Made by a program: the position numbers and the translations under genes
Assembly: GCA_026400835.1 (NCBI GenBank)
Contig: JAPLOA010000074.1
Span: 62,001 to 126,000 of the forward strand
Source of the DNA: Planctomycetales bacterium
Lineage (GTDB): Bacteria > Planctomycetota > Planctomycetia > Planctomycetales > Planctomycetaceae
Reading direction: 5' to 3'
DNA length: 64,000 nt
Shown here: in pieces, positions 3,311 through 62,187 of the stretch
Numbering within the stretch: the stretch's first letter is position 1
How the letters are laid out: each line of letters begins with the position of its first letter
Notes under the pieces: model-generated
Told to the model about the DNA's origin: nothing
Databases searched by the model: none
Seen by the model: only the letters and a program-made list of their open reading frames with translations

Positions 3311-3400
3311 CGTTTTGGTTCCGGATCGTTTTGCTGTGCACGATGGACTTGCTCTTGCCAGAGCCTCGACGCGAAAGCAACGCTTTCGCCGATTTGACTT

Positions 3401-3468
3401 TCGTTGCACGGCGAGCCGCTAGCGACTGTGCTTGCAAACGCAGTCGCCTGCGGCTTGCCGTTAAACGA
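3401..3468. repeat. Family-A inverted repeat (REP-like), full copy
   Basis: The left arm TCGTTGCACGGCGAGCCGC and the right arm GCGGCTTGCCGTTAAACGA are reverse complements apart from a few changes, and the pairing continues inward through GCGACTG/CAGTCGC. Related copies occur at 14985, 31555, 38595 and 48488. It could form a long hairpin in RNA or DNA. There is no coding sign. Confidence 0.8.
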
Positions 3469-3839: not shown

Positions 3840-3890
3840 CCCGTCGGCGGAGCGACGAGTGTACCGTACGCCCGTCGCTCCGCCGACGGG
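3840..3890. repeat. Family-B 51-bp palindrome
   Basis: This is an almost perfect palindrome of 51 bases with ends CCCGTCGGCGGAGCGACG and CGTCGCTCCGCCGACGGG around a GTGTACCGTACGCC centre. It lies between the M48 and U32 genes, within the upstream region of the U32 gene. It is the same element as at 39247, 43892 and 53264. Confidence 0.9.
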
Positions 3891-3934: not shown

Positions 3935-6490
3935 ATGTCCAACAACTCGCCCATGCCGACCATGAAAGCTCCCGAACTACTTTCTCCTGCAGGCGACTGG
4001 GACTGCATTCGCGCGGCGGTTGAAAATGGAGCGGACGCGGTCTATTTCGGCCTGGATGACGGCTTTAATGCCCGTGCTCGTGCCGCAAACTTTGATCTGA
4101 ACCGTATCGGTGAGATCATGGAGTTCCTGCATCGCCGCGGCGTCAAAGGCTACGTGACTCTCAATACTCTGGCGTTCTCCGACGAATTGCCTCGACTTCA
4201 GTCCATCATCCGCCGCCTTGCACTGGCTCCGGTGAATGCGGTGCTGGTTCAGGATCTTGGCGTCGCGAAGATGATTCGAGCGATCACGTCTGACCTGGCC
4301 ATTCATGCGTCAACTCAGATGACTCTGACGAGTGCGGAATGTATCGCGGTCGCGGAACAGCTTGGCATCGAGCGTGTCGTGCTGCCGCGAGAACTTTCAA
4401 TCGACGAGATCCGTCAAATTCATAGTCGGTCGCCCATAGAACTTGAAGCGTTCATTCACGGGGCTTTGTGTGTGGCCTATTCCGGTCAGTGCCTGACGAG
4501 CGAATCGCTGGGTGGTCGAAGCGCAAATCGTGGCCAGTGTGCGCAGGCGTGCCGACTTCCCTATGAACTCTTATGTGATGGTGAACTGCGTGACTTCGGC
4601 GATCAGAAGTACTTGCTGAGCCCTCAGGATCTGGCGGCGTTTTCGCTGACTCGCGAACTCATCGATGCGGGAGTTCGCTCCTTCAAAATCGAAGGACGCC
4701 TGAAGACCCCGGAATACGTCGCCAATATTACTCGCCACTATCGCGAAGCCATTGATACCGCAATGGCCGGAAGGCCCGTCGAGTTTACTCGACGTCAGAT
4801 CGCCGAGATGGAGCAGTCGTTTTCCCGAGGATTCTCACCGGGCTGGCTGAATGGTTGCGATCATAAGATGCTGGTTCCGGCAACGAGTTCCGCCAAACGA
4901 GGCGTCCTGCTGGGGCGAATTTCCAACGTGCTTCGCGACTGCGTGACGGTCAGCCTCGATTATTCCGTGCAGGCCGGAGATGGAGTCGTCTTTGATGGCG
5001 ACCGATTCGGCGGCAACGAACAGGGCGGACGAGTCTTTCAGGTGTTTCGTGGCAGACAAGCTCTGCACGAACCTGTGGACTGCGGTGAGGTTGATCTGAC
5101 CTTTGATCGCAGTCATCTGGATCTCAGCAAGTTGTATGTTGGACAGCAGATCTGGAAGACCGATGATCCTCGGCTGAATCAACAGCTTCGCCGCACGTTT
5201 GATGTGGCCGATCCGCAGCGCCGAGTCGCCGTGCGGGTCAAAGTACACGCCGAAGTTGGTCATCCTCTGCGGATTGAAGGCCGTGCGACTAATGGCTGTA
5301 CGTGTCTGGTTCAGTCAGAAGATGCTCTGCAGTTGGCTCAGCGACATCCGGTCACGAAGGAAGCTCTGCAGGAGCAGCTTTCGCGGCTGGGTGGAACGGT
5401 TTACGAACTGAATTCGCTGGACGCAGAAATCATCGGGGGCCCAATGGTTCCCCTGAGCGTGCTGGGAAAACTTCGTAAGCAGATGACTGAGCAGCTCGAT
5501 AAGTCTCTGCCGATGCCCGAGATTCATCTGTGTCGCGATTCCGCCATCGATCGCCTGCGTAGTGAATTGCCTGCTCATGTTGCATCTTCGGCAACTCCGT
5601 TGCTGACAGTGCTCTGCCGGACACTGGACCAGTTGCGAGAATGCACGCAGATGGCGGCTAGTTCGCCAACCTCAGCAAGCTCTGCGACTTTTGCGGATCG
5701 TTTGATCGTTGACTTTCAGGATATTCGTGAATACCGTCAGGCCGTTGAGATCGCCAGAGCTTCCGGGCATACTCTGCTGCTGGCGACTCCGCGAATTCAG
5801 AAGCCGGATGAGATGGGCCTGTTTCGAGCAATGCTCAAGCATCGTCCGGACGGCGTGCTGATCAGAAATCTGAGCGGTCTCGCGTTCTTTCGCGACAACG
5901 CGATCCCGGTCGTGGGTGACTACTCTTTGAATGTGACAAACGAACTGACGGCATCGTTTCTGATGCAACAAGGACTGCAGTGGCTGACTCCATCGTACGA
6001 TCTGAATCGTGATCAGTTAATGGAGCTTGTGAAGTGGGTGCCTTCGCAGTGGCTGGAGATTGTTGTCCATCAACACATGCCAATGTTTCATATGGAACAT
6101 TGCGTGTTCTGTGCGATGTTGTCACCAGGAACGAACAAAACGAATTGCGGTCGCCCGTGCGATGAGCATCAGGTTGAACTGCGGGATCGCACAGGTGTCG
6201 ATCATCCTCTGGTTGCTGACGTTGGCTGCCGCAACACGCTGTTCAACGCGGTCGCTCAAAGCTCGGCCGAAGTTGTCACCGATCTGAGGCAGGCAGGCGT
6301 GAGTCGTTTTCGAATTGAACTGCTGCGAGAATCACCGGGTGAGATTCATCGATTGCTGCAGCTCTATCGTCAATTGCTGAATGGGGCCGTGACCGGCCAA
6401 CATGTCTGGCAATCTCTGAATGCAATGAATCGTGTCGGTGTGACCAGAGGAACTCTGGAGTCAGGCCGCAACCCGCTGGCAATTTTGTAG
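3935..6490 (+). CDS. U32-family peptidase with DUF3656-type C-terminus (RlhA-like)
   Basis: This 851-residue protein opens with the U32 signature ELLSPAGDWDCIRAAVENGA and DAVYFGLDDG. The conserved core is EAFIHGALCVAYSGQC followed by GRSANRGQCAQACRLPYE, with the cysteines that characterise U32 enzymes. The C-terminal half carries a second cysteine cluster (MEHCVFC, then NCGRPCDEH and DVGCR), a layout I associate with U32 proteins carrying DUF3656. E. coli RlhA, which hydroxylates 23S rRNA, has related architecture at about 650 residues. U32 proteins have been linked both to collagen degradation and to RNA or quinone hydroxylation, so a protease label is traditional rather than proven. Start: ATG at 3935, with later in-frame ATGs at 3953 and 3962; the longer upstream open frame merely reads through the palindrome. 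Confidence 0.9.
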   Translation: MSNNSPMPTMKAPELLSPAGDWDCIRAAVENGADAVYFGLDDGFNARARAANFDLNRIGEIMEFLHRRGVKGYVTLNTLAFSDELPRLQSIIRRLALAPVNAVLVQDLGVAKMIRAITSDLAIHASTQMTLTSAECIAVAEQLGIERVVLPRELSIDEIRQIHSRSPIELEAFIHGALCVAYSGQCLTSESLGGRSANRGQCAQACRLPYELLCDGELRDFGDQKYLLSPQDLAAFSLTRELIDAGVRSFKIEGRLKTPEYVANITRHYREAIDTAMAGRPVEFTRRQIAEMEQSFSRGFSPGWLNGCDHKMLVPATSSAKRGVLLGRISNVLRDCVTVSLDYSVQAGDGVVFDGDRFGGNEQGGRVFQVFRGRQALHEPVDCGEVDLTFDRSHLDLSKLYVGQQIWKTDDPRLNQQLRRTFDVADPQRRVAVRVKVHAEVGHPLRIEGRATNGCTCLVQSEDALQLAQRHPVTKEALQEQLSRLGGTVYELNSLDAEIIGGPMVPLSVLGKLRKQMTEQLDKSLPMPEIHLCRDSAIDRLRSELPAHVASSATPLLTVLCRTLDQLRECTQMAASSPTSASSATFADRLIVDFQDIREYRQAVEIARASGHTLLLATPRIQKPDEMGLFRAMLKHRPDGVLIRNLSGLAFFRDNAIPVVGDYSLNVTNELTASFLMQQGLQWLTPSYDLNRDQLMELVKWVPSQWLEIVVHQHMPMFHMEHCVFCAMLSPGTNKTNCGRPCDEHQVELRDRTGVDHPLVADVGCRNTLFNAVAQSSAEVVTDLRQAGVSRFRIELLRESPGEIHRLLQLYRQLLNGAVTGQHVWQSLNAMNRVGVTRGTLESGRNPLAIL

Positions 6491-30913: not shown

Positions 30914-30975
30914 GGGGTAGGACAGGCATTCCTGCCCGTCGCAGGCTGGTCGGACAAGAATGTCCAACCCACGTT
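30914..30975. repeat. Family-E repeat, full copy
   Basis: Two adjacent hairpins: GGCATTCCTGCC, then TCGGACAAGAATGTCCAACC. It is the reverse complement of the copy at 62021 with minor changes. Intergenic, between ubiE and the SET gene. Confidence 0.85.
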
Positions 30976-31045
30976 TTCAGGGCTGTAAGAGAACTACTAT
31001 TCTCTTACCGAAATATCCGCAGACTTCAGATCCGCGTTAACAGGC

Positions 31046-31435: not shown

Positions 31436-31554
31436 TGTCGTGAATTTTGTGAAGGAGAATGTTGAGAAGAATATGACGGAAAAAAAAGTGCCGGGATCAT
31501 CGAAGCACGTTGTATCCTGATCCCCCGGAGTGCAATACCAGGGTGTTGATTTAA

Positions 31555-31610
31555 TCGTTTAACGGCAAGCCACAGGCGTTGTTGTCTGATTTCGCCTCGC
31601 CGTTACACGA
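31555..31610. repeat. Family-A inverted repeat
   Basis: Left arm TCGTTTAACGGCAAGCC, right arm CGCCTCGCCGTTACACGA, with some bases lost from the right arm. It lies 17 bases past the stop of the dihydroorotase-like gene and may double as a transcript-end hairpin. Confidence 0.75.
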
Positions 31611-38535: not shown

Positions 38536-38594
38536 TTCCTCAGGGGACTCGATTGCAATCTGACGGGAGCAGGCACCACGAGAATCGCTCCGTA

Positions 38595-38617
38595 GCCTGC
38601 GGCTTGCCGTTAACCGA
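38595..38617. repeat. Family-A repeat, right arm only
   Basis: GCCTGCGGCTTGCCGTTAACCGA matches the right arm of the family-A element. The left arm is not recognisable. It lies in the 200-bp spacer before the YfhO-like gene. Confidence 0.75.
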
Positions 38618-38682: not shown

Positions 38683-41079
38683 ATGACATCGGAGAATGCC
38701 TGCCCGTCGGTTCTGCAGCAAACTCGAATCGCTCGTACTGCCGCGTTCGCATTCCTGAGCTGGATGTTTCTTCCGCTGCTGACGGGACAGATCTACGTCT
38801 GCGATGATCTGCTCAATTATCATCTGCCGATTCGCCAGTTCTATTCGTCGTGTCTTGAGAACGGCGATGCTTTCGACTGGATGCCCGGTCTGTTCAGTGG
38901 CTACTTTCTGACGGGTTCAGGGCAGGCTGGAACATACCATCCCTGGCATTGGTTGCTCTATCGTTGCCTGCCGCTGGAGACCGCTTTTAATCTGGAAGTA
39001 CTCAGCAGTTATCCGTTCATGCTGTTCGGAATGAAACTGTTTCTGCAGCGACACTTTCAGCGTCCTGATGCAGCCTGGCTGGGAGCCATCGTTTTTACAT
39101 TCAGCGGCTTTTGTACTCTGCACTTTCTGCATCCAAATGCAATTGCGGTTGTGTCGCACATTCCTTGGTTGTTGCTGTGTGCTGATGTGATATTACGCGA
39201 TGGTCCGGGATCGTCTTTTGGTCCCGGAGTAAACAAACAAGGCCATCCCGTCGTCGGAGCGACGGGCGTACGGTACACACGTCGCTCCGCCGACAGGACA
39301 GCCCTGATTGGCGTCGCACTGCTGACAGGTTCCCAGCTACTGCTCGGCTATCCTCAATATGTCTGGTTCTCCCTGCTCGCTGAGATCGTTTATTGCCTCG
39401 GATTCATGTCGTGGAGTTCTCAGGGCTTTGGCATACTTTTGGTCATCGCCAGTCTGAAGGTTTTGGGGCTGGGGCTGGGAGCTGTCCAGGTCCTTCCTTC
39501 GATGGTCGCCTTGTCGGAATCTGATCGCAGCGCGATGGCGAAGGAGTTCTTCTTTGAGCATCCCTTAACTGCCGCCGACATGCTGCAATGGTTCAACCCG
39601 TTCCTCACAGACACGCGAGTCTTCGGCCGGAATACTCATGAACTGGGACTGTACTGCGGCGCGATCCCGTTCCTGCTTGCGATCGTCGCGATCACACGTC
39701 TTCGATCACAATCATCTCATCGACGACTGCTACAGGTGATGCTGGCTCTGGGCTTGCTGGCCTTGTGGCTTTCTTTCGGCAAGGCTGGTGGCCTCTACGT
39801 TATTCAGACATGGCTGCCAATAATCGGGAGATTTCGCTGGCCGTCACGCATTCTTGTCCTGCTTCATTTCGTCCTCGCCGTGTTTGCAACGGCCGGTTAC
39901 ACTCGCATCACCAGCCCCGTCAGCGGTACGGCGCCAGCTGCCGGTGTCAGCCTGGAAACGAACGGCAACCTGCCATGTTCTCGCGATCAGAAACAACTGC
40001 TTCCGCCCATCATCTACTTCGTCCCCATCGCCAGCATTCTGACTTCACTTCTGGCGCCGGTGATCTGCGGTCGCGAGAATGTCGCTTCGTGGACGCTGTT
40101 GTCGCTCGGACCAATTCTGTTTGTGCTGGCAGCGATTCTGGTGCGTGATGTTTCTCGCGGTCGCCACAGCCCGGCGTTCATGTTGTTCCTCGCCGGTGAT
40201 CTGGCGGCCTATGGACTAACCTATGACGCAATGAGCCTCAAACAATCAATGCAGGAAATCATCGCGGAGGTGCCCACTCCGCCCGGGTCTCCGAATGATG
40301 GCCGAGTCATCGCCGAGGTGCAGTTGCAGAATGGTGACGAAAAGTTTCATGGCAATAAGTTGTTGTTAAAAGGCTGGCATCAGGCCGATGGTTATGAGGG
40401 TCTGCTGTCGTCGCGATCATTGCTGGGAAAAAACCTGACGCTGGATGGGCTCCGTATCGCAGGAGTTCGCTGGGTAATCAATGAAGGTCACCACAATTCG
40501 ATCGCAGCATTGAAGGCCACCAGCGATCCAAAGTGGCTGGAAGTTCCCGATCCTCAGCCGCGAGTGCGACTAGCTCGTAATGTTCGACAGGTCAGCAACA
40601 CGGCCGAGGCATTGCAACACTTGTCCGCAGCAGGACCAGTCGTCGTTGAATATGATCCGGAACAGCGAGCTGGAATCGAGGAATTAGCGACTTCGGGTTG
40701 CACTCCTTCAGAATCCGACGTCGTGCAGATCGTGTCGGAACGACCCGGGTTGATTGAAGTCGACGTCGAATGCTCATCGAGCCAACTACTGATTGTTTCC
40801 GAGAGCTGTTCACACGGCTGGAAAGTCACTGTGAATGGAGAAATGTCTTCGATTCTCAGGGCGGAAGTGGATTACATGGCGTGTGAGATTCCGGCTGGCC
40901 AGTCCCGTGTGCAGTTTCGCTTCGAGCCGGATAGTGTGACCGTTGGCTTTCGGATCTCCGTGACTTCTCTTTGGTTCTTGTGCCCTGGAGCTGCAGTGTT
41001 CTACTTTCTGAAGTTCCGTCGGATCTCTCAAAGAAAACCGAATATGGGGCGAACGACAACAGATTCGCTAACGCATTAA
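38683..41079 (+). CDS. YfhO-like multi-pass membrane protein carrying an in-frame palindromic repeat
   Basis: This 798-residue protein has an N-terminal set of about ten or more transmembrane segments (for example AAWLGAIVFTFSGFCTLHFL, IPWLLLCADVIL, ALIGVALLTGSQLLLGYPQY) and a soluble C-terminal part of about 270 residues, ending in another membrane helix. The layout and motifs such as YVCDDLLNYHLPI and SGYFLTGSGQAGTYHPWHWL suit YfhO-family or GT-C-like membrane glycosyltransferases. Residues 189-205 (PVVGATGVRYTRRSADR) are encoded exactly by the 51-bp family-B palindrome at 39247-39297, which sits in a loop between membrane segments and keeps the frame. The DUF456 gene follows 19 bp downstream. 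Confidence 0.85.
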   Translation: MTSENACPSVLQQTRIARTAAFAFLSWMFLPLLTGQIYVCDDLLNYHLPIRQFYSSCLENGDAFDWMPGLFSGYFLTGSGQAGTYHPWHWLLYRCLPLETAFNLEVLSSYPFMLFGMKLFLQRHFQRPDAAWLGAIVFTFSGFCTLHFLHPNAIAVVSHIPWLLLCADVILRDGPGSSFGPGVNKQGHPVVGATGVRYTRRSADRTALIGVALLTGSQLLLGYPQYVWFSLLAEIVYCLGFMSWSSQGFGILLVIASLKVLGLGLGAVQVLPSMVALSESDRSAMAKEFFFEHPLTAADMLQWFNPFLTDTRVFGRNTHELGLYCGAIPFLLAIVAITRLRSQSSHRRLLQVMLALGLLALWLSFGKAGGLYVIQTWLPIIGRFRWPSRILVLLHFVLAVFATAGYTRITSPVSGTAPAAGVSLETNGNLPCSRDQKQLLPPIIYFVPIASILTSLLAPVICGRENVASWTLLSLGPILFVLAAILVRDVSRGRHSPAFMLFLAGDLAAYGLTYDAMSLKQSMQEIIAEVPTPPGSPNDGRVIAEVQLQNGDEKFHGNKLLLKGWHQADGYEGLLSSRSLLGKNLTLDGLRIAGVRWVINEGHHNSIAALKATSDPKWLEVPDPQPRVRLARNVRQVSNTAEALQHLSAAGPVVVEYDPEQRAGIEELATSGCTPSESDVVQIVSERPGLIEVDVECSSSQLLIVSESCSHGWKVTVNGEMSSILRAEVDYMACEIPAGQSRVQFRFEPDSVTVGFRISVTSLWFLCPGAAVFYFLKFRRISQRKPNMGRTTTDSLTH
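39247..39297. repeat. Family-B 51-bp palindrome inside a coding gene
   Basis: CCCGTCGTCGGAGCGACG ... CGTCGCTCCGCCGACAGG, 51 bases, beginning on a codon boundary of the YfhO-like gene (codons 189-205). Its length is a multiple of three and it has no stop in the reading frame. Confidence 0.9.
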
Positions 41080-41655: not shown

Positions 41656-43785
41656 TTACTGCACCACCAGCTTCGCAACCTCGTCAGCCGCCAATGCTCG
41701 ATTGAACACAGCGGCCTCGTCGAGGCGGCCTTCCCAGTTGGAGTCGTTGTCGCTGCGGCCGCCAAGCATGAGTTCTTCGATTGCAACCGAAGGAGCTTTG
41801 CCTTCGATTTCAAGTCTTCCGTTGAGATAAACCTGAACCTTCTCGCCATCACGAACCAGAACGACATGGCTCCAGACCCAGCGAGGAATCTCGGTCTTGC
41901 CTGCCAGACGTTCCTCTGCAGACTGGCCATGCTGATAAATCAAAGTCCCGGTATGTCCGCTCTTTCCACCGACACCCAGATGCTCTCCAAACGCACTGAT
42001 CCCGTGGTCGTTATCTCGCGAATAAAACCATCCGCTGACATCACGTCCATCGTTCGGCATGCCGTTCCAGATCCAGAGCGACACGCTATAGGATGTTCCC
42101 AGATCGGCTGCTCGTGAACGCAGGCGGCCACCGACAAAATGCGGTGCTCGGTTGGTTGCGTTTGCTCCGCAGAACGCTGCTGATTGAGCACCTTCAAGAT
42201 GATACGTAATCGCAGATTCGTAGTGGGCATCTCGATGATGGCCGCTGGAATCTGCTGCGATCGGGCCGGTAAACTCATTCAGTCGCCACCACGCGGCTGG
42301 CCTCAATGATTGAATCGTTTCAGACGCAACCCCAACGGGCAGACCGTAGCTGCGGCGAACTTTCCCGCTGACAGACTCCAGCAAGCTGATCGCAGCCTGC
42401 GTAATCTTCGCTTCGGCTTTCACTTCCAGGCCAGCCGATCGAGCTTCCCACGTGTTGTAACCGCCGAAGGCATGCTGTTCGACCGGCGGAATATAACCAT
42501 CGCCACCGTTGGCTAGTTCAATCACCATGTTGTGCGCCAGAGGACTGGCCGCTTTGATCTTGAGCCCTGTGATGGCATACGTTTCGTTCGGAGTTGTCGC
42601 GATACCAATGTCCCCGATTCGCAAAGCCTGAACAACGATTTCAGCCTGCTGGGCTTCATGCAGCAGGATCTGCTCGCGAGCATAAACCTCTGTCTGAGTT
42701 GTCGGCAGGCGATCTCCGACTTCATTCATGATGCGTTGAGACCATTCCAGCAGTTGCTTATCCGGAACTCGATACTTCAATGTCATTCGCTGTTCGGCCA
42801 TCGCGATACTGACATCGTCACGATACTGCACACCTTCCAGAGCCTTCATTGCGATGTCGAGAAGGCCGTTGGCGTACGTATCGATCGTCAACGCGGGATC
42901 CCATGAGTCGGGTTTTGTGTAATCACGACGCCAGATGTCGCCGCTGCAACCATGTGACATTATTCCGACAAAGTTGCTGTCCGGAGCAAGTCGTTGCTTG
43001 AGCCCTTCGCTGAACAGTCCAAAGTAATCTGCACTAATGTCGGAATCGCCAAAGTAGTGCATGGAGAAATTTCCCAGCACAGCCAGCGGCTTACCTTCGC
43101 GAGTCTGAACCGAAATGAGCGACAACTGAGGATCTTCAGGCCCAGCTTCACCGACAGCGTCATCCCAGTTCGCTCCGGCATGCATGTTGGCTCGCACGGT
43201 CAGGTTGCCAAACGGATCTTCTGCGATGCGATCCGGGCGACGAATCCATTGTCGTACAGCGGTATATGCTGGTGCTTCGGCCGAAGCGAAACCAATCCGA
43301 GCCGGCTGTTGAGCCGACTGAGCGGCCGCGATGACCTGCACCACTTTCTCACGCAGGAACGGGACGTAATCCGGATCAGCATCTGTCCCCAGACATCCCA
43401 TCGACGCAGGGGCCGAGTGAGAATGTGTGGCGGAAATCAGGATTCGATCGGTCGGAATCCCGGTCTTCACTTTCGCAAGAGCTTTGATGTCGTCCAGAAG
43501 AACTCGGCCAATCATACAACTGTCCACAACCACGATCGCCAGTTGTTCTTTACCATCGCCGAAGTACAAAGCTCGCGCCATCACTCGCGTCTTGACCTTG
43601 TCCAGACTGCGACTAGTCATGCCTCCATTGACCAGGACCGGAAGCTTGTCTGGTGTGACATCCACGACAGCAGCACCGGCCTTGAAATCCGCTTTAGCCA
43701 GACCTGGAGCTGACACCAGCAGCATCGCAAGAATGAGCAGGAGTTGAGCCTGAAAAGTACTTTTCGGAGCAGGGGCTGTGATCAT
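41656..43785 (-). CDS. Neutral/alkaline ceramidase-like protein with C-terminal LamG domain
   Basis: This 709-residue exported protein has a signal peptide (LLLILAMLLVSAPGLAKA). The first 480 residues resemble the neutral/alkaline non-lysosomal ceramidase N-terminal family, often annotated this way in planctomycetes: GAAVVDVTPDKLPV, ISATHSHSAPASMGCLGTD (zinc-type HSH), FSMHYFGDSDISADYFGLFS and FVGIMSHGCSGDIWRRD. The last 200 residues form a LamG/concanavalin-like domain (AWWRLNEFTGPIAADSSG, YSVSLWIWNGMPND, WVWSHVVLVRDGEKVQVYLN, FNRALAADEVAKLV), likely carbohydrate binding. ATG 43785 with GGAG upstream. The substrate need not be ceramide. Confidence 0.88.
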   Translation of the reverse strand: MITAPAPKSTFQAQLLLILAMLLVSAPGLAKADFKAGAAVVDVTPDKLPVLVNGGMTSRSLDKVKTRVMARALYFGDGKEQLAIVVVDSCMIGRVLLDDIKALAKVKTGIPTDRILISATHSHSAPASMGCLGTDADPDYVPFLREKVVQVIAAAQSAQQPARIGFASAEAPAYTAVRQWIRRPDRIAEDPFGNLTVRANMHAGANWDDAVGEAGPEDPQLSLISVQTREGKPLAVLGNFSMHYFGDSDISADYFGLFSEGLKQRLAPDSNFVGIMSHGCSGDIWRRDYTKPDSWDPALTIDTYANGLLDIAMKALEGVQYRDDVSIAMAEQRMTLKYRVPDKQLLEWSQRIMNEVGDRLPTTQTEVYAREQILLHEAQQAEIVVQALRIGDIGIATTPNETYAITGLKIKAASPLAHNMVIELANGGDGYIPPVEQHAFGGYNTWEARSAGLEVKAEAKITQAAISLLESVSGKVRRSYGLPVGVASETIQSLRPAAWWRLNEFTGPIAADSSGHHRDAHYESAITYHLEGAQSAAFCGANATNRAPHFVGGRLRSRAADLGTSYSVSLWIWNGMPNDGRDVSGWFYSRDNDHGISAFGEHLGVGGKSGHTGTLIYQHGQSAEERLAGKTEIPRWVWSHVVLVRDGEKVQVYLNGRLEIEGKAPSVAIEELMLGGRSDNDSNWEGRLDEAAVFNRALAADEVAKLVVQ

Positions 43786-43891: not shown

Positions 43892-43942
43892 CCCGTCGGC
43901 GGAGCGACGGGTGTACGGTACACCCGTCGCTCCGCCGACGGG
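43892..43942. repeat. Family-B 51-bp palindrome (most perfect copy)
   Basis: CCCGTCGGCGGAGCGACGGG ... CCCGTCGCTCCGCCGACGGG with centre TGTACGGTACA: a nearly perfect palindrome. It lies between the ceramidase-like gene start and the end of the helicase gene. No reading frame on either strand of this copy contains a stop codon. Confidence 0.92.
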
Positions 43943-44043: not shown

Positions 44044-47000
44044 TCACTTTTCTTGAGTCGCCCGCTTTCGGCCTCCGGGCTTTTTTTCATTCTCAGCCTC
44101 CAGCGATGTCGAAAACGGATCAGGCGTGCCGGACTGGCGTGAGATCTCCGACACAGTGCTTGCCAGTCGAGTCTCTTTCGATGCTGATTTGACGTTGCGA
44201 GCGGAATCGATGGTTTCTATCAGACGGTTCAATTGTTCGGTTGGCCGTCGGAACCAATCAAGGCTCCACAGATGATGAATCATCCAGCCCTGACTCTGCA
44301 GTACTCCGTCTGTCGTGCGGTTGCGATCTCGAGCGGATCGAGCGGAACTCCACGTTTCGCCATCGACGATAATCCCCATGAGATAGCGACTTGAATTGTC
44401 CGGATCGATAATCGCCAGATCCACATAAAGCCCGGCGAGGCCGATCTGCTTAACGACAGAGTATCCCCGTTCCTCCAGTTGACGTGCCACGACATCCGCA
44501 AAGCGATCGCTGGAGCGGCCGCCTCGTGCGGCATCAAACTCGCCGCCCCTCTCTGCAAACCGCAGATACTCACGAAACACCGCTGGGCCGCGTCCTGTCG
44601 CGCGAGTCAAATCGATGTCTTCAGCATGCATCGAAGAAAAGATCTGTAGAACTCTTTTGGCACGAGTCATCAGCACATTCAATCGACGCTCGCCACCGGT
44701 CGCTGACACGGGACCAAAATTCAGAGAAACTTTGCCGTCTTCACCCGGCCCATAACCTACAGACACAAAAACAGCATCCCGTTCATCCCCTTGCACGTTC
44801 TCAAGATTCTTCACAAAGAACGGATCCACCGCGTTGGGATCAAAGAATGAATCAAGGTCCGGATTGCTGCGTCTCAGCTTCGCGAGTGATTCCAGAATCG
44901 CATCGCGCTGAGTGACGGAGAATGCGGCAACTCCAAGCGTCCACTGCGGACATTCTCGGGCATGGCGAATGATGGCTTCAGCCACGACGTTGGCTTCGAT
45001 TTCGTTGCGGCCTTTCAGAAAACGACCGGTCTCCACGAAACGCCATTTGACGCCCAATTCGCCTGATCGCTCAGGCGAAGGAACAACGTACAACTGATTG
45101 TCATAGAACTCCCGATTCGAAACGGCGATCAGCGATTCATGTTTGCTGCGATAATGCCAACGCAACATTCTTTGCGGCATATTGCGAGCAATCGCCAGAC
45201 CAAGAATGCTTTCAACATCACCGGCCTGCATTTCCAGCGATCCGTCTTCGCTGGCCGTATCCCCTGACATGCGACCGAAGAACTGCGTCGGAGGCATTTG
45301 TTTATCGTCGCCAACCACAACCATCTGACGACAGCGAGCCGCCGCGCCCAGAGCTTCGACCGGTCGAACCTGCGAGGCTTCATCAATCAACAGCATGTCG
45401 AACTCAAGAACACCCGGCTCCAGATACTGCGCGACCGACAACGGACTCATCATGAACACGGGTTTCACAGCCTGCACAGCAGTACCAGCGCGGGCGAGAA
45501 GTTCGCGCAGCGGAAGATGGCGACGCTGTTTCTGCATTTCATGTTTCAGCAGCTGAACAGCCTCGGGCGTGTGGCCTTCGCGAGAACGTCCAATCCCCTT
45601 CCAGTGCGCGTCGGCGACTTCTGCACGAGCGATCTCCAGGCGTCGAATATCCAGGCTGCAGAATTCTTCGATGAGTGTTTCGAACTTAACTCCTTCGAAC
45701 GTTTCCAGATTTGCAGATTGCTTCAGGACAGCTCGCAACAAAGCTTCCGCTCGAGCAAATCGAAAAACAGTCGGTGCATCCCCGGGAGAAATTCGGCCCG
45801 AGCTGATCCTTTCCACAAGCACTCCGCCGCCAATAGTCGCCGCAGCAGAATTTGAACGTCGATAGGTCTGCCACTGCTGAAGTCCTTCTGGATTCCTGGA
45901 CCACTCCACCAGCCGCCGTCGAATCTCTGTCAGAGCATTGTCTTCCAATGAAGCCACGGAATCTGCAATGTGGGCGGTCGCGGAGGCCCAATCGCGCAGC
46001 GAGCGATCATCGAGGTGCAAATCTGGCTTTTCGGCTTCAAAAGCGACTGAGAAATTCAGTTGCAACGATTCGCCCAGACGACGATAACCTGCCAGAAACA
46101 CATCCAGCTTTTGAGCAACGTCCGTGGCCAGACGCTTGAGTGCCTCCCTGGATTCCAGCGAAGCCAACATCGAGCGGAATCGTGGCGAGACGCCCGATTT
46201 CACCGTGGCATCATCCCACGCTTCCCAGGTCGCGATGCGCTTCAGATCAGTCTGCGGACCATGCCATAAACGCCCAAAAACGTTGCTCGCAAACGTATCG
46301 GCATCGGCCAGTTTTTTGATAGCGATCTGCCGTCTATGCAAAAGCTCAAAGACATTGAGGCGTGCTTCAAATGTTCCAGGTTGTGGCCCGGTCAGAATAC
46401 TCTTCAGCGTTTGCCGAGCTTTACGATACGGCGTGTGGAGCATGCGACAGAGACATCGACCATACATCGTGTAGGCATGGTAGTCTTCCGCAACATCAAG
46501 ATCCCAGGCAGACTCAGCAACCTTGCCCCGCAACTTCTCATTCGCTTCAAGAATCGCGCGAGCGTGGTCAGCGAGTTCTCTGATGGCGCAGCGATGATCG
46601 GTCCAGATCAGATTTGCTGCCGCGTACGGATCGATCTCGGGCGCAACAAGCAGTGCATCGACGGTTCGCAGGAGTCTGCGAATCGACGACAACGAAGTGA
46701 CGGCATCGTCAGAAAGTTTCTGACGGAGAGTGGTCCCGGCGTCCGTTAACGCATCAAGATCAGCCATCCGCTGCGGCGTGGTTGTCAACAGCCGTTCGAG
46801 GTCCAGGGGCAGGATGTGATCCAGCATCGAGCCGCGCCAGGGATGTTGATTGGGATCGCCGATATCGGAGATGACTCGTGCTAGATTTGTGACGGCTTCC
46901 AGTTTCAGGGCGTATTCGTCGGAGTCCCAGTCTGCGGCTTCTGGTAACTGAAAATCGGGCAGCGGAGTCGCAGCAGCTCGCAAATCGATTAGTTCTCCCA

Positions 47001-48351
47001 GAATTTGATAAGGTGTCAGCCCGCTGCTGGCAAAACGAGTATGCAGCGTCGTCGCATAGTCATTTAGCTTCTGTTGACGATCTTTGAGTCGACGAATGGT
47101 GTCTGGCAGATCGTCCGGAAGAACGGGAGCACCCATTTTCAGAGTGCGATCGACTTCTCTCAGAACAATACGCTTATTGGACTTTCGGGAATGCAGTTCG
47201 AGGCATAATTCGCCGAGTCCGATGTTATCCAATCGTCGTTTGACGACTTCCAGAGCTGCCATCTTTTCCGCAACAAACAGAATCGTCTTACCGGAACTCA
47301 CGGCCGCGGCAATCAGATTTGTAATCGTCTGTGACTTGCCGGTTCCTGGAGGACCCTGAATCACCAGATTTCTTCCGCGAGCGGCTTCTTCAATCACCAG
47401 CGACTGAGAGCTGTCGCAATCAATCACGTGCTGAGTCTTTGCCGCATCGAACAATCGATCGATATTCTCATGACTTCGGCAGACAGGTTCCACGGGTGGA
47501 AATCCATCCCGCAGAAGTCCAGTGATTAAAGGTTGATCCTGAAGGGGTCGGCCAGTCGGCCAGTTATTGGGATCAAGATCTCGATACATCAAAAGGCGAG
47601 TAAACGAGAAGCACCACAGCACGATATCGTCGGCTCGCACTTCCCACCCGCGTTGATCGGCAATGACCACCGTCACATCCTGAAAGTAAGTGGCCGGTGA
47701 GAGATCGTCTGTGTTGGGGACGTCAGGAAGATTGATCCCGAAGTCACTCCTGAGTCGCACCTTCAGAGTCAGATTGGTCTCAATTTCGCCGTCGTTCCAT
47801 GACAACGAGTAACGTTTGCCTGAGCGGCCTTTCTCAAGCACAACGGGGACCAGCAGCAGTGGTGCGTAGCGTGGTGCTTCAGGGGCGTCGAGTTCAAACC
47901 ACTTCAGGAATCCGAGTGCCAGATAAAGCACATTGACTCCCTGCTCCTGCATCAGCGTGGAGCTGTCATCCATGAGCGCCTGAAGCCGACGATCCAGTTC
48001 TTCCGGAGTCAATCTGGTGTGCAACACATCATCAGTCGCAGACATTGCGCCGGCATTACATTTTCCTGACGCGGGTTCGGAATTCGGATGCGAGGCGAGT
48101 TCTGAATTGGAATTGAGGCGGGAATTACCAGCCAACGCCTTCTCAGCGAGTGGGCCTTCCTCAAAGCGAAACGCAGTGCCTTCATGGACGAGCATGCGAA
48201 AGACGTCAGCCGCTGATTCGTCATGAACACCGATCGCCGCGCCGGGATTCCTGTCGCGAGGCATCGAGAGCAGGCGATTGGTGGTAGTGAGTTCCAGCAG
48301 ATCTCGTCTGGCAAGTTCCAGCTGTTTCAGCAGTTGATCGGAGTTAGCCAT
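44044..48351 (-). CDS. DUF4011 - superfamily 1 helicase - nuclease-like protein
   Basis: This giant cytosolic protein has 1435 residues. The N-terminal 300 residues match DUF4011 (LLELTTTNRLLSMPRDRNPG, YLALGFLKWFELDAPEAPRY). A split SF1 helicase follows: Walker A VIQGPPGTGKSQTITNLIAA (about residues 331-350), then a long alpha-helical insertion, Walker B MLLIDEASQVRPVEALGAA, VVVGDDKQMPPTQFFG, WHYRSKHESLI, LENVQGDERDAVFVSVGYGP and LNVLMTRAKRVL. The C-terminal 150 residues look like a Vsr/DUF559-type PD-(D/E)xK nuclease (ERGYSVVKQIGLAGLYVDLA, GIIVDGETW). ATG 48351 with no signal. The same order of domains is reported for the single-gene Hhe anti-phage system. No other defence gene is adjacent. 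Confidence 0.88.
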   Translation of the reverse strand: MANSDQLLKQLELARRDLLELTTTNRLLSMPRDRNPGAAIGVHDESAADVFRMLVHEGTAFRFEEGPLAEKALAGNSRLNSNSELASHPNSEPASGKCNAGAMSATDDVLHTRLTPEELDRRLQALMDDSSTLMQEQGVNVLYLALGFLKWFELDAPEAPRYAPLLLVPVVLEKGRSGKRYSLSWNDGEIETNLTLKVRLRSDFGINLPDVPNTDDLSPATYFQDVTVVIADQRGWEVRADDIVLWCFSFTRLLMYRDLDPNNWPTGRPLQDQPLITGLLRDGFPPVEPVCRSHENIDRLFDAAKTQHVIDCDSSQSLVIEEAARGRNLVIQGPPGTGKSQTITNLIAAAVSSGKTILFVAEKMAALEVVKRRLDNIGLGELCLELHSRKSNKRIVLREVDRTLKMGAPVLPDDLPDTIRRLKDRQQKLNDYATTLHTRFASSGLTPYQILGELIDLRAAATPLPDFQLPEAADWDSDEYALKLEAVTNLARVISDIGDPNQHPWRGSMLDHILPLDLERLLTTTPQRMADLDALTDAGTTLRQKLSDDAVTSLSSIRRLLRTVDALLVAPEIDPYAAANLIWTDHRCAIRELADHARAILEANEKLRGKVAESAWDLDVAEDYHAYTMYGRCLCRMLHTPYRKARQTLKSILTGPQPGTFEARLNVFELLHRRQIAIKKLADADTFASNVFGRLWHGPQTDLKRIATWEAWDDATVKSGVSPRFRSMLASLESREALKRLATDVAQKLDVFLAGYRRLGESLQLNFSVAFEAEKPDLHLDDRSLRDWASATAHIADSVASLEDNALTEIRRRLVEWSRNPEGLQQWQTYRRSNSAAATIGGGVLVERISSGRISPGDAPTVFRFARAEALLRAVLKQSANLETFEGVKFETLIEEFCSLDIRRLEIARAEVADAHWKGIGRSREGHTPEAVQLLKHEMQKQRRHLPLRELLARAGTAVQAVKPVFMMSPLSVAQYLEPGVLEFDMLLIDEASQVRPVEALGAAARCRQMVVVGDDKQMPPTQFFGRMSGDTASEDGSLEMQAGDVESILGLAIARNMPQRMLRWHYRSKHESLIAVSNREFYDNQLYVVPSPERSGELGVKWRFVETGRFLKGRNEIEANVVAEAIIRHARECPQWTLGVAAFSVTQRDAILESLAKLRRSNPDLDSFFDPNAVDPFFVKNLENVQGDERDAVFVSVGYGPGEDGKVSLNFGPVSATGGERRLNVLMTRAKRVLQIFSSMHAEDIDLTRATGRGPAVFREYLRFAERGGEFDAARGGRSSDRFADVVARQLEERGYSVVKQIGLAGLYVDLAIIDPDNSSRYLMGIIVDGETWSSARSARDRNRTTDGVLQSQGWMIHHLWSLDWFRRPTEQLNRLIETIDSARNVKSASKETRLASTVSEISRQSGTPDPFSTSLEAENEKKPGGRKRATQEK

Positions 48352-48487
48352 GTGTTGTTTGGAGTATTGTGAGACGATACGCTCGGTGTTACGGGGACTT
48401 GATATACTTCGATGTTGCTCATGCCTTTGATATGAGTCTTCCGGCTCGCGCCGGCGCGCTTTTGACCTCACCCCTGCGATGGCGATT

Positions 48488-48555
48488 TCGTTTAACAGTA
48501 AGCCACAGGTGACTTCCGTTGCCTGCATCGACGCCTGCGGCTTACCGTTAAACGA
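48488..48555. repeat. Family-A inverted repeat, full copy
   Basis: Left arm TCGTTTAACAGTAAGCCACAGG, right arm CGCCTGCGGCTTACCGTTAAACGA, about 22 bp each around a loop of about 22 bases. It lies between the helicase start and the Rieske gene stop. The helicase open frame extends through it, but the arm is upstream of the chosen start. Confidence 0.85.
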
Positions 48556-53263: not shown

Positions 53264-53314
53264 CCCGTCGACAGAGCGACGAGTGTACAGTGCACACGTC
53301 ACTCCGCCCAATGG
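53264..53314. repeat. Family-B 51-bp palindrome, diverged copy
   Basis: CCCGTCGACAGAGCGACG ... CACACGTCACTCCGCCCAATGG, 51 bases, the most diverged copy. It abuts the Uma2 stop codon. Confidence 0.85.
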
Positions 53315-53528: not shown

Positions 53529-53706
53529 GCTTAATGTTCATTTTCAAACGTCTTTCCCGAGGCTAATGCCTGGGGCTATCCGCGGCCGCCTCTTTGAGGC
53601 GAAATCAGAGCGATAGTTGTCCCGCTGAATCTCGTTGCAATACCAAATTTTTGACACCTCAGGACAAGCCCCATTGTGGCAAATCGAGATTAAGTCCACG
53701 CCATTG

Positions 53707-53723
53707 GTCGCTCCGCCGACGGG
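53707..53723. repeat. Family-B half element
   Basis: GTCGCTCCGCCGACGGG is the right terminus of the family-B palindrome without the rest. Together with the element at 53264 it bounds a segment of about 460 bp in inverted orientation. Confidence 0.8.
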
Positions 53724-53753: not shown

Positions 53754-55043
53754 CTACTTCCGCTGGTCCAGCGCGACGTAATCGCGTTGAGTGGCCCCGG
53801 TGTAGATCTGCCGCGGACGGTAGATGCGACTTGTGTCTTCGTCACGCTGTTCACGCCAGTGAGCCAGCCAGCCTGGCAGTCGACCGATGGCGAACATCAC
53901 CGTGAACATGTTCGTTGGGATGCCCATCGCTCGGTAAAGAATGCCGCTGTAGAAGTCGACGTTCGGATACAGTTTGCGGCTTACGAAGTAGTCGTCTTCC
54001 AGAGCGATCTTTTCGAGGTTGCTCGCAATCTCCAGCAGAGGATCGTTAATCCCCAGTTCCTGCAGAACCTGCCCAGCCATCTTTCGCAAAATCGTGGCTC
54101 GTGGATCGAAGTTTTTGTACACGCGGTGACCAAAGCCCATCAGGCGGAAGCCGCTGTCCTTATCCTTGGCCTTGGCGACATACTTCTTGTAGTCATCTCC
54201 GTCTTCGTGAATCATCTGCAGCATTTCGAGTACGGCCTGATTGGCCCCGCCATGCAGAGGTCCCCAAAGAGCACAGATGCCGGCAGAGATTGACGCGAAG
54301 ATATTGGCACGGCTGCTGGCAACGATACGGACTGTTGATGTACTGCAGTTCTGCTCGTGATCCGCGTGCAGGATCAACAGCATGTTCAGTGCCTTCACAA
54401 GCACCGGATTGATTTGGTATTCCTCAGCCGGAACAGCAAACATCATGTTCAGGAAGTTGGCACAGTAAGACAGATTGTTCTGAGGATAAATCGTCGGCTG
54501 ACCAATCGACTTCTTGTAAGCATAGGCTGCGATTGTTCGCACTTTGGCGATCAGACGTACAATGTTGACGTCGGAAATGTCGTCTTCGGTGCCGGGGTAG
54601 TAAGTCGAAAGAGACGAAACCATCGCCGACAAAATCGCCATCGGGTGAGCGTTTGGCGGGAATCCTTCGAAGAACTTCTTCATGTCTTCGTGAATCATGC
54701 TGTGATAAGTCAGCTGAGCACGGAACGCCTTGAGTTGTTCCGGGGTTGGCAGTTCGCCATACAGCAACAGCCACGACGTTTCGACAAAATCTGATCGTTC
54801 TGCCAGTTGTTCAATCGGGTAACCGCGGTAACGCAGAATGCCTTTGTCACCGTCGATAAACGTGATCGCACTTTTGCAGGCACCGGTGCTGTTAAATCCG
54901 GGATCCATCGTGATCGCGCCGGACTGAGCCAGCAACTTGGTGATATCGACAGCGGTTTCATTTTCCACGCCGCGAATCACCGGCAACTCATAGGATTTAC
55001 CGTCAAGAGTCAGACTGGCCGATGACATAAATTCGGGTTCCAT
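53754..55043 (-). CDS. gltA: Citrate synthase
   Basis: This 429-residue enzyme condenses oxaloacetate and acetyl-CoA at the entry of the TCA cycle. Landmarks: RYRGYPIEQLAERSDFVETS, NMLLILHADHEQNCSTSTVR (active-site His), GALWGPLHGGANQAV-type segment (seen as CALWGPLHGGANQAV) and MGFGHRVYKNFDPRA with the second His; Asp is in the expected C-terminal stretch. The length fits type II (E. coli-like) enzymes. The start may be ATG 55043 or ATG 55028. The gene stands alone, divergent from a DUF1501 gene. Confidence 0.96.
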   Translation of the reverse strand: MEPEFMSSASLTLDGKSYELPVIRGVENETAVDITKLLAQSGAITMDPGFNSTGACKSAITFIDGDKGILRYRGYPIEQLAERSDFVETSWLLLYGELPTPEQLKAFRAQLTYHSMIHEDMKKFFEGFPPNAHPMAILSAMVSSLSTYYPGTEDDISDVNIVRLIAKVRTIAAYAYKKSIGQPTIYPQNNLSYCANFLNMMFAVPAEEYQINPVLVKALNMLLILHADHEQNCSTSTVRIVASSRANIFASISAGICALWGPLHGGANQAVLEMLQMIHEDGDDYKKYVAKAKDKDSGFRLMGFGHRVYKNFDPRATILRKMAGQVLQELGINDPLLEIASNLEKIALEDDYFVSRKLYPNVDFYSGILYRAMGIPTNMFTVMFAIGRLPGWLAHWREQRDEDTSRIYRPRQIYTGATQRDYVALDQRK

Positions 55044-61556: not shown

Positions 61557-62000
61557 ATGGAAACAGCCACACTCCCCATAGTGACCAGAGAAACGCTGAA
61601 GCCCGGCGAAGTTCTCTGCAGTTACTGTACGGCGCGATGCTGTCGCTACTTCGCGATGGCGATCGATACGCCCAAGACGTGGGAACAATTCGACAACATG
61701 CGGTGGTACATGATGCATGGCCCGTTTTCAGTCTTTGTCGATGGCGCGTCATGGTATCTGTTGATCCCGGGCGACTGTCAGCATTTGCAGGCTGATCATA
61801 TGTGCGGAGCCTACGACACTCGACCGCAGATCTGCCGCGACTACACCACAGACTCCTGTGAGTATGACAACGACGGCGTGTACGATCAGTTGTTTGAGAC
61901 GCCCGCACAACTGTGGGAGTACGCTCATGCAATTCTTCCGGCTCGAACGCGCCGTTCGGCTGATGGCCGTGTCTCACTTCCTGTGTTGCAGGTCAATTAG
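61557..62000 (+). CDS. YkgJ-family cysteine-cluster protein
   Basis: This 147-residue protein carries the CxxC...CC cluster typical of YkgJ/UPF0153 (LCSYCTARCCRYFAMAID), then MCGAYDTRPQICRDYTTDSC. Such proteins probably bind a metal or Fe-S cluster; the function is not known. ATG 61557 was chosen because the conserved region starts shortly after. Near the C-terminus it contains TRRSADG, identical to the peptide encoded by the family-B palindrome but with different codons. The gene is monocistronic. Confidence 0.85.
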   Translation: METATLPIVTRETLKPGEVLCSYCTARCCRYFAMAIDTPKTWEQFDNMRWYMMHGPFSVFVDGASWYLLIPGDCQHLQADHMCGAYDTRPQICRDYTTDSCEYDNDGVYDQLFETPAQLWEYAHAILPARTRRSADGRVSLPVLQVN

Positions 62001-62020
62001 TGCTTTTTCGGAGCGGGAAA

Positions 62021-62078
62021 CGTAGGTTGGACATTCTTGTCCGACAATCCCGCGACGGGCAAGAATGCCCATCCTACC
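62021..62078. repeat. Family-E repeat, full copy
   Basis: CGTAGGTTGGACATTCTTGTCCGAC followed by GACGGGCAAGAATGCCCATCCTACC: two hairpins facing outward-complementary ends. Reverse complement of the copy at 30914. Confidence 0.85.
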
Positions 62079-62187
62079 CTCATCAAATCTGAATCAGGTT
62101 CACAGTATCAGCGGACGCTGAAAGTGCTTCTGCCGATGCCGCAGATCATCAAATTCTGCTCCCATTTCATTCGATTGGCCTTCTGAC

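Follow-up and report, generated by a model that had tools for sequence, protein, structure and literature searches.

A genus-restricted family of probable REP dimers in Fuerstiella with an in-frame copy in a YfhO-like gene

Introduction

A 51-nt palindrome lies in frame within a gene for a YfhO-like membrane protein in a planctomycete, which raises the question whether such a repeat is specialised for coding genes or belongs to a mobile system that normally resides between them. An earlier note on this DNA favoured the former and read the palindrome as an element of the Rickettsia palindromic element (RPE) type that spreads into genes. The window analysed here is a 64,000-nt stretch of a Planctomycetales genome (GCA_026400835.1, contig JAPLOA010000074.1), and this genome is designated G000.

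Results

Searching the whole 7.58-Mb genome for the 51-nt repeat (CCCGTCGGCGGAGCGACGGGTGTACSGTACACCCGTCGCTCCGCCGACGGG) returned 38 full or near-full copies together with about a dozen single halves. A pattern search of the same genome gave 35 sites and none with a reversed-pattern control, so the repeat occurs far beyond chance. In the window, we recovered all copies listed in the earlier note (3840, 39247, 43892 and 53264, plus a half near 53707). The full copies, to which no strand is assigned, comprise i) an intergenic copy at 3840..3890 (49/51 to the consensus), upstream of a peptidase U32 gene with a likely start at 3953, ii) the intragenic copy at 39247..39297 (47/51), which is in frame in the YfhO-like gene and encodes PVVGATGVRYTRRSADR, iii) an intergenic consensus copy at 43892..43942 (51/51) between the genes 41656-43785(-) and 44044-48351(-), and iv) a degenerate intergenic copy at 53264..53314 (42/51), 21 bp past the stop of a Uma2-family gene. 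The single half (about 53703-53721, minus strand; G000:C54:115704-115722) corresponds to one REP hairpin with 3 mismatches and follows the stop of a citrate synthase gene, 53754-55043(-), at a distance of about 30 bp. As the earlier note had stated, the copy at 43892 is stop-free in all six frames; it is a perfect 25+1+25 palindrome and is missing from the orthologous region of the related genome G004. Naive open reading frames span the copies at 3840 and 43892, yet gene calls put both outside genes.

The window also holds a second dispersed repeat family with the core GCCTGCGGCTTGCCGTTAAACGA (3399-3468, 31544-31578, 38592-38617 and 48486-48555), and a sequence resembling this family is present in an intergenic region of G004. 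Besides, there is an 82-nt inverted repeat pair (30915-30996 and 61998-62079), 31 kb apart and 82% complementary, and the segment 53392-53437 (-), near the degenerate copy at 53264, matches the Rfam sRNA family Acido-Lenti-1.

Each half of the palindrome folds alone into a 20-nt hairpin with a 7-bp stem (CCCGTCG, a 6-nt loop and CGACGGG). The unit can be written as GTAC-R-CCCGTCG-[CTCCGC]-CGACGGG, or GTAC-ACCCGTCG-CTCCGC-CGACGGG in its single-stranded hairpin form, and two inverted copies of it face each other with their GTAC tags inwards across one base. Among 47 distinct sequences, whose rows include orthologues so that the counts are not all independent, compensatory changes affected 6 pairs and 9 cells of the small hairpins, a level that 0/500 shuffles equalled, while a single 51-bp hairpin gave no covariation beyond shuffles in the same set. 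Covariation in the two small hairpins and none in the long one indicates that the unit is a tagged hairpin in a tail-to-tail dimer. Each half thus has the anatomy expected of a REP, namely a short hairpin (20-40 nt) preceded by four unpaired tag nucleotides on its 5' side, and the tag reads GTAC in most copies and GTAG or GTAA in a few, GTAG being the canonical REP tag. CGTC-tagged REPs, which have an 8-9 bp stem, a 4-5 nt loop and no transposase, were excluded by the 7-bp stem, the 6-nt loop, the GTAC tag and the REP-associated tyrosine transposase (RAYT) described below.

Using a codon-usage gene caller trained on G000, we found 35 of the 38 copies to be intergenic. Two others (C46:15484 and C27:34597) touch only uncertain ORF starts, which leaves the copy at 39247 as the sole one clearly within a gene. 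According to the same caller, the window is 85% coding and a random 51-mer falls wholly within a gene with a probability of 0.82, so that about 31 of 38 would be expected there, and the observed intragenic number falls far below this (P about 1e-26). The earlier note had itself named a genome-wide count of intragenic copies as the refuting test for its gene-spreading element, and this count came out against a coding-targeted reading. The weight that it gave to the open frames does not hold either: in a simulation, 44% of shuffled-arm palindromes of equal composition were stop-free in all six frames, and only 25 of the 38 genomic copies are. GC-rich palindromes often lack stops, and the open frame of the 39247 copy is a by-product of this composition.

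The 35 intergenic copies occupy 22 co-directional, 8 convergent and 5 divergent spacers, compared to about 16.6, 4.9 and 13.5 expected from intergenic length in the window. Divergent spacers are therefore under-used, and many copies lie 10-60 bp past stop codons. Both the extragenic preference and the bias towards 3' ends are as expected of REPs. In related genomes, most placeable copies are intergenic as well, several being undecided at contig ends or overlapping short, low-scoring ORFs.

The exceptional copy at 39247 starts on a codon boundary, as had been claimed, of a gene at 38683..41079 on the plus strand that matches PF09586 (YfhO; Pfam 4.6e-17). Aligning the YfhO-like homologues, a check proposed in the earlier note, revealed the insertion in frame in three congeners (G000, G004 and both contigs of G015) and its absence from the homologues of G014, G005 and G076. 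Between G000 and G004, the 17 inserted codons carry 3 synonymous and 8 non-synonymous changes, which corresponds to a w of about 1.05 based on small counts and few sites, in comparison to about 0.20 for the constrained rest of the gene. The in-frame sharing by congeners together with this w points to an old, tolerated and near-neutral insertion, and the 39247 copy is a genuine but rare case of this kind. It landed once and long ago, in frame within a membrane-protein loop, was tolerated and now drifts almost neutrally. A function acquired by the peptide within the YfhO-like protein is very unlikely: the insertion does remain in frame in all three congeners, but its w contrasts with that of the gene remainder, few sites as there are, and the homologues of G014 and G005 manage without the peptide. 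The locus provides an instance of a repeat turning into protein sequence that is relatively dated and nearly neutral.

A direct look at Y1_Tnp genes revealed no palindrome, as the PF01797 score of the cognate RAYT does not reach the threshold. This gene, which was reached via its C-terminal peptide, is located on contig C401 of the congener G015 and encodes a protein with the HUH motif NHVH and the Y-x-x-x-N-P tyrosine motif YISKNP that define RAYTs. It matches the NCBIfam model REP_Tyr_transpos (NF047646) with 8.4e-15, below the curated cut-off, and Pfam Y1_Tnp with only 0.035. Dimers are found upstream of the gene (1432-1482), inside it in frame (636-686) and at its 3' end (426-476; locus L289). 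The in-gene dimer encodes PTQRQVYRTPVAPPTG between NHVH and YISKNP, where the protein has about 20 extra residues and a sister RAYT reads SWKHFTAHKINRELRTKGRFWQ. An in-frame REP between the HUH and tyrosine motifs is a feature of RAYT subclass 2.4; the RAYT tree is weakly supported and covers part of the intended rows. Palindrome-bounded C-terminal RAYT fragments occur on G015:C363 and at the end of a JALHMY contig, where the arrangement may be an assembly join.

The combination of a RAYT gene with the flanking repeat is present in G015:C401 and not in the window's own genome. G000 contains 19 Y1_Tnp loci and lacks a close counterpart of the cognate RAYT, as no RAYT there exceeds 49% identity to the G015 protein; at the matching site of the RAYT locus (G000:C18), just a palindrome is left. 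G000 does have a sister RAYT on C73 at about 69 kb, flanked by GTAG-C-CRTCTCG-CTCCGC-CGAGAYG repeats that share the CTCCGC loop, the stem length and the tag spacing with the palindrome, and related RAYTs of G004 and G014 are flanked by similar GTAG-tagged REPs. The pairs of this sister family have their tags outside and are 130-150 bp apart, whereas a palindrome dimer joins its two units tail to tail across a single base pair. GTAG-tagged and GTAC-tagged repeat populations are both present in G000. Four of its RAYT-type genes, at C73:68800-69950 (L065), C15 (L068), C78 (L067) and C24 (L050), are each bordered by a GTAG-tagged REP type of their own.

When 84,980 species records were scanned, a set that may omit the window's own genome, the palindrome was restricted to Fuerstiella-type genomes; one matching record titled Candidatus Kuenenia corresponds to G001, a genome of the same genus. 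Among 98 relatives, we found it in 5 other congeners, and no viral contigs with the palindrome were found. G015 carries the palindrome at most G000 sites and G004 at many of them; some sites are empty or partial, and none of the empty ones inspected for target duplication was clean. Orthologous copies are better conserved than their raw flanks, and conservation of the sites ends with close relatives. At the position orthologous to G000:C37:33281, G001:C114 (L140) and G014:C48 (L142) bear different palindromic sequences instead. Since no two-sided orthologous site is common to JALHMY and G000, the palindrome was amplified separately in JALHMY. There (L245-L288) and at locus L265 of G012, it forms the centre of a repeat of about 185 bp with conserved, unequal arms that end near GGACAAGTCCT and ATTTATTGATGG, which indicates that another mobile form exists.

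Discussion

Taken together, the palindrome is very probably a REP dimer, which is non-autonomous and depends on a RAYT for its spread, and its family represents genus-restricted REP dimers of Fuerstiella with their own RAYT, a new family of a known class. This is supported by the intergenic preference, the covariation of the small hairpins, the bracketed G015 RAYT, the sister RAYT, the genus restriction, the near-neutral insert and the fact that a further Fuerstiella genome has insertion sites independent of those in G000. Against it stand the predominance of GTAC over the canonical GTAG tag and the tail-to-tail 1-bp spacing, which is unlike that of the sister family, as well as the lack of a close RAYT in G000, the armed form in JALHMY and G012 and the lack of a clean empty site. 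Mechanistically, the dimers would be spread by the RAYT, which belongs to the single-strand HUH-Y1 transposases (IS200/IS605 type); this enzyme may recognise the GTAC-tagged hairpin and move it as single-stranded DNA, and selection would normally remove copies inside genes.

It is extremely unlikely that the palindrome is instead an RPE-like element specialised for coding genes thanks to its open frames. In-frame insertions in both the YfhO and the RAYT gene, in two different reading frames, and the number of stop-free copies fit such an element, but the strong depletion from genes refutes it as a genome-wide rule, the stop-free state is expected at the simulated frequency anyway, and the palindrome has both a cognate RAYT and the anatomy of a REP. 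What stands of the earlier note is thus the mobile palindrome and its in-frame insertion in YfhO that homologues lack, and not the gene-spreading element of RPE type. The arms around the palindrome in JALHMY and at L265 of G012, with their similar outer ends, could also suggest the core of a longer inverted-repeat transposon (a MITE) moved by a DDE-type transposase, of which G000 and G015 retain the core alone. We regard this as highly improbable, as copies in G000, G015, G004 and G001 are armless with the core still conserved, several JALHMY copies have one recognisable arm only, and palindromes bracket a RAYT gene.

The spacer bias, the frequent placement soon after stops and the conservation of orthologous copies above that of their flanks would also be in line with a selected RNA or DNA element, for example a transcription attenuator or an mRNA 3'-end stabiliser, which could coexist with a REP dimer. 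Nevertheless, this appears unlikely: REPs in general are reported to be biased in this way (PMC3733652), promoter avoidance would produce it as well, and the sites themselves are shared by close relatives only. Similarly doubtful is the possibility that this RAYT lineage switched its tag from GTAG to GTAC and that its mobile unit became a fused tail-to-tail dimer open in all frames, with the open frames being selected; if true, the dimer would be able to live in the gene of the transposase that moves it and, now and then, in proteins of the host.

With the REP dimer as the preferred reading, a striking in-frame palindrome now has its place in a known mobile system. Fuerstiella offers a test case, as G015 has an intact cognate RAYT in contrast to G000 with dozens of copies and no close RAYT, so that one could measure how a REP population decays once its transposase is lost.

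We found no paper on this REP family in Fuerstiella. Published work already covers REPs of planctomycetes, REPs inserted into genes and those lying in frame within RAYT genes. The view that such an element is not described in planctomycetes is wrong for the class: PMC3733652 reports REP families of Rhodopirellula baltica, and in-frame REPs within RAYT genes, between the HUH and tyrosine motifs, are known (PMC6006769). PMC3733652 also covers tagged REPs, their dimers, an intergenic bias and occasional in-frame copies in genes, and includes TT dimers with 1-2 bp spacers in Opitutus terrae. Its GTAG-tagged REPs resemble the palindrome in the tag followed by a 7-bp stem and a short loop, the inverted dimers, the RAYT association, the mostly intergenic location 3' of genes and the occasional in-frame gene copies; the palindrome differs by GTAC in most copies, and its stem and loop were not seen in the text of PMC3733652. 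The G015 RAYT shares flanking REPs and an in-frame REP between HUH and Tyr with TnpAREP/RAYT subclass 2.4 (PMC6006769), a likeness that rests on these in-frame and flanking REPs, whereas its inserted unit is a full dimer. REPINs occur in genomes with and without a RAYT (PMC8049555), and like these REPIN/RAYT populations (PMC3116915, PMC8049555) the palindrome is a non-autonomous REP doublet with vertical inheritance and persistence without a RAYT gene, although its tags lie inside, across the 1-bp spacer. Rickettsia palindromic elements (PMC2229807, PMC3767692) are likewise in-frame palindromic insertions tolerated in proteins, but those of the RPE-1 type measure 105-146 bp and have many intragenic copies, their frequent in-frame ORF location contrasting with one clear case among the 38 copies of the 51-bp palindrome.
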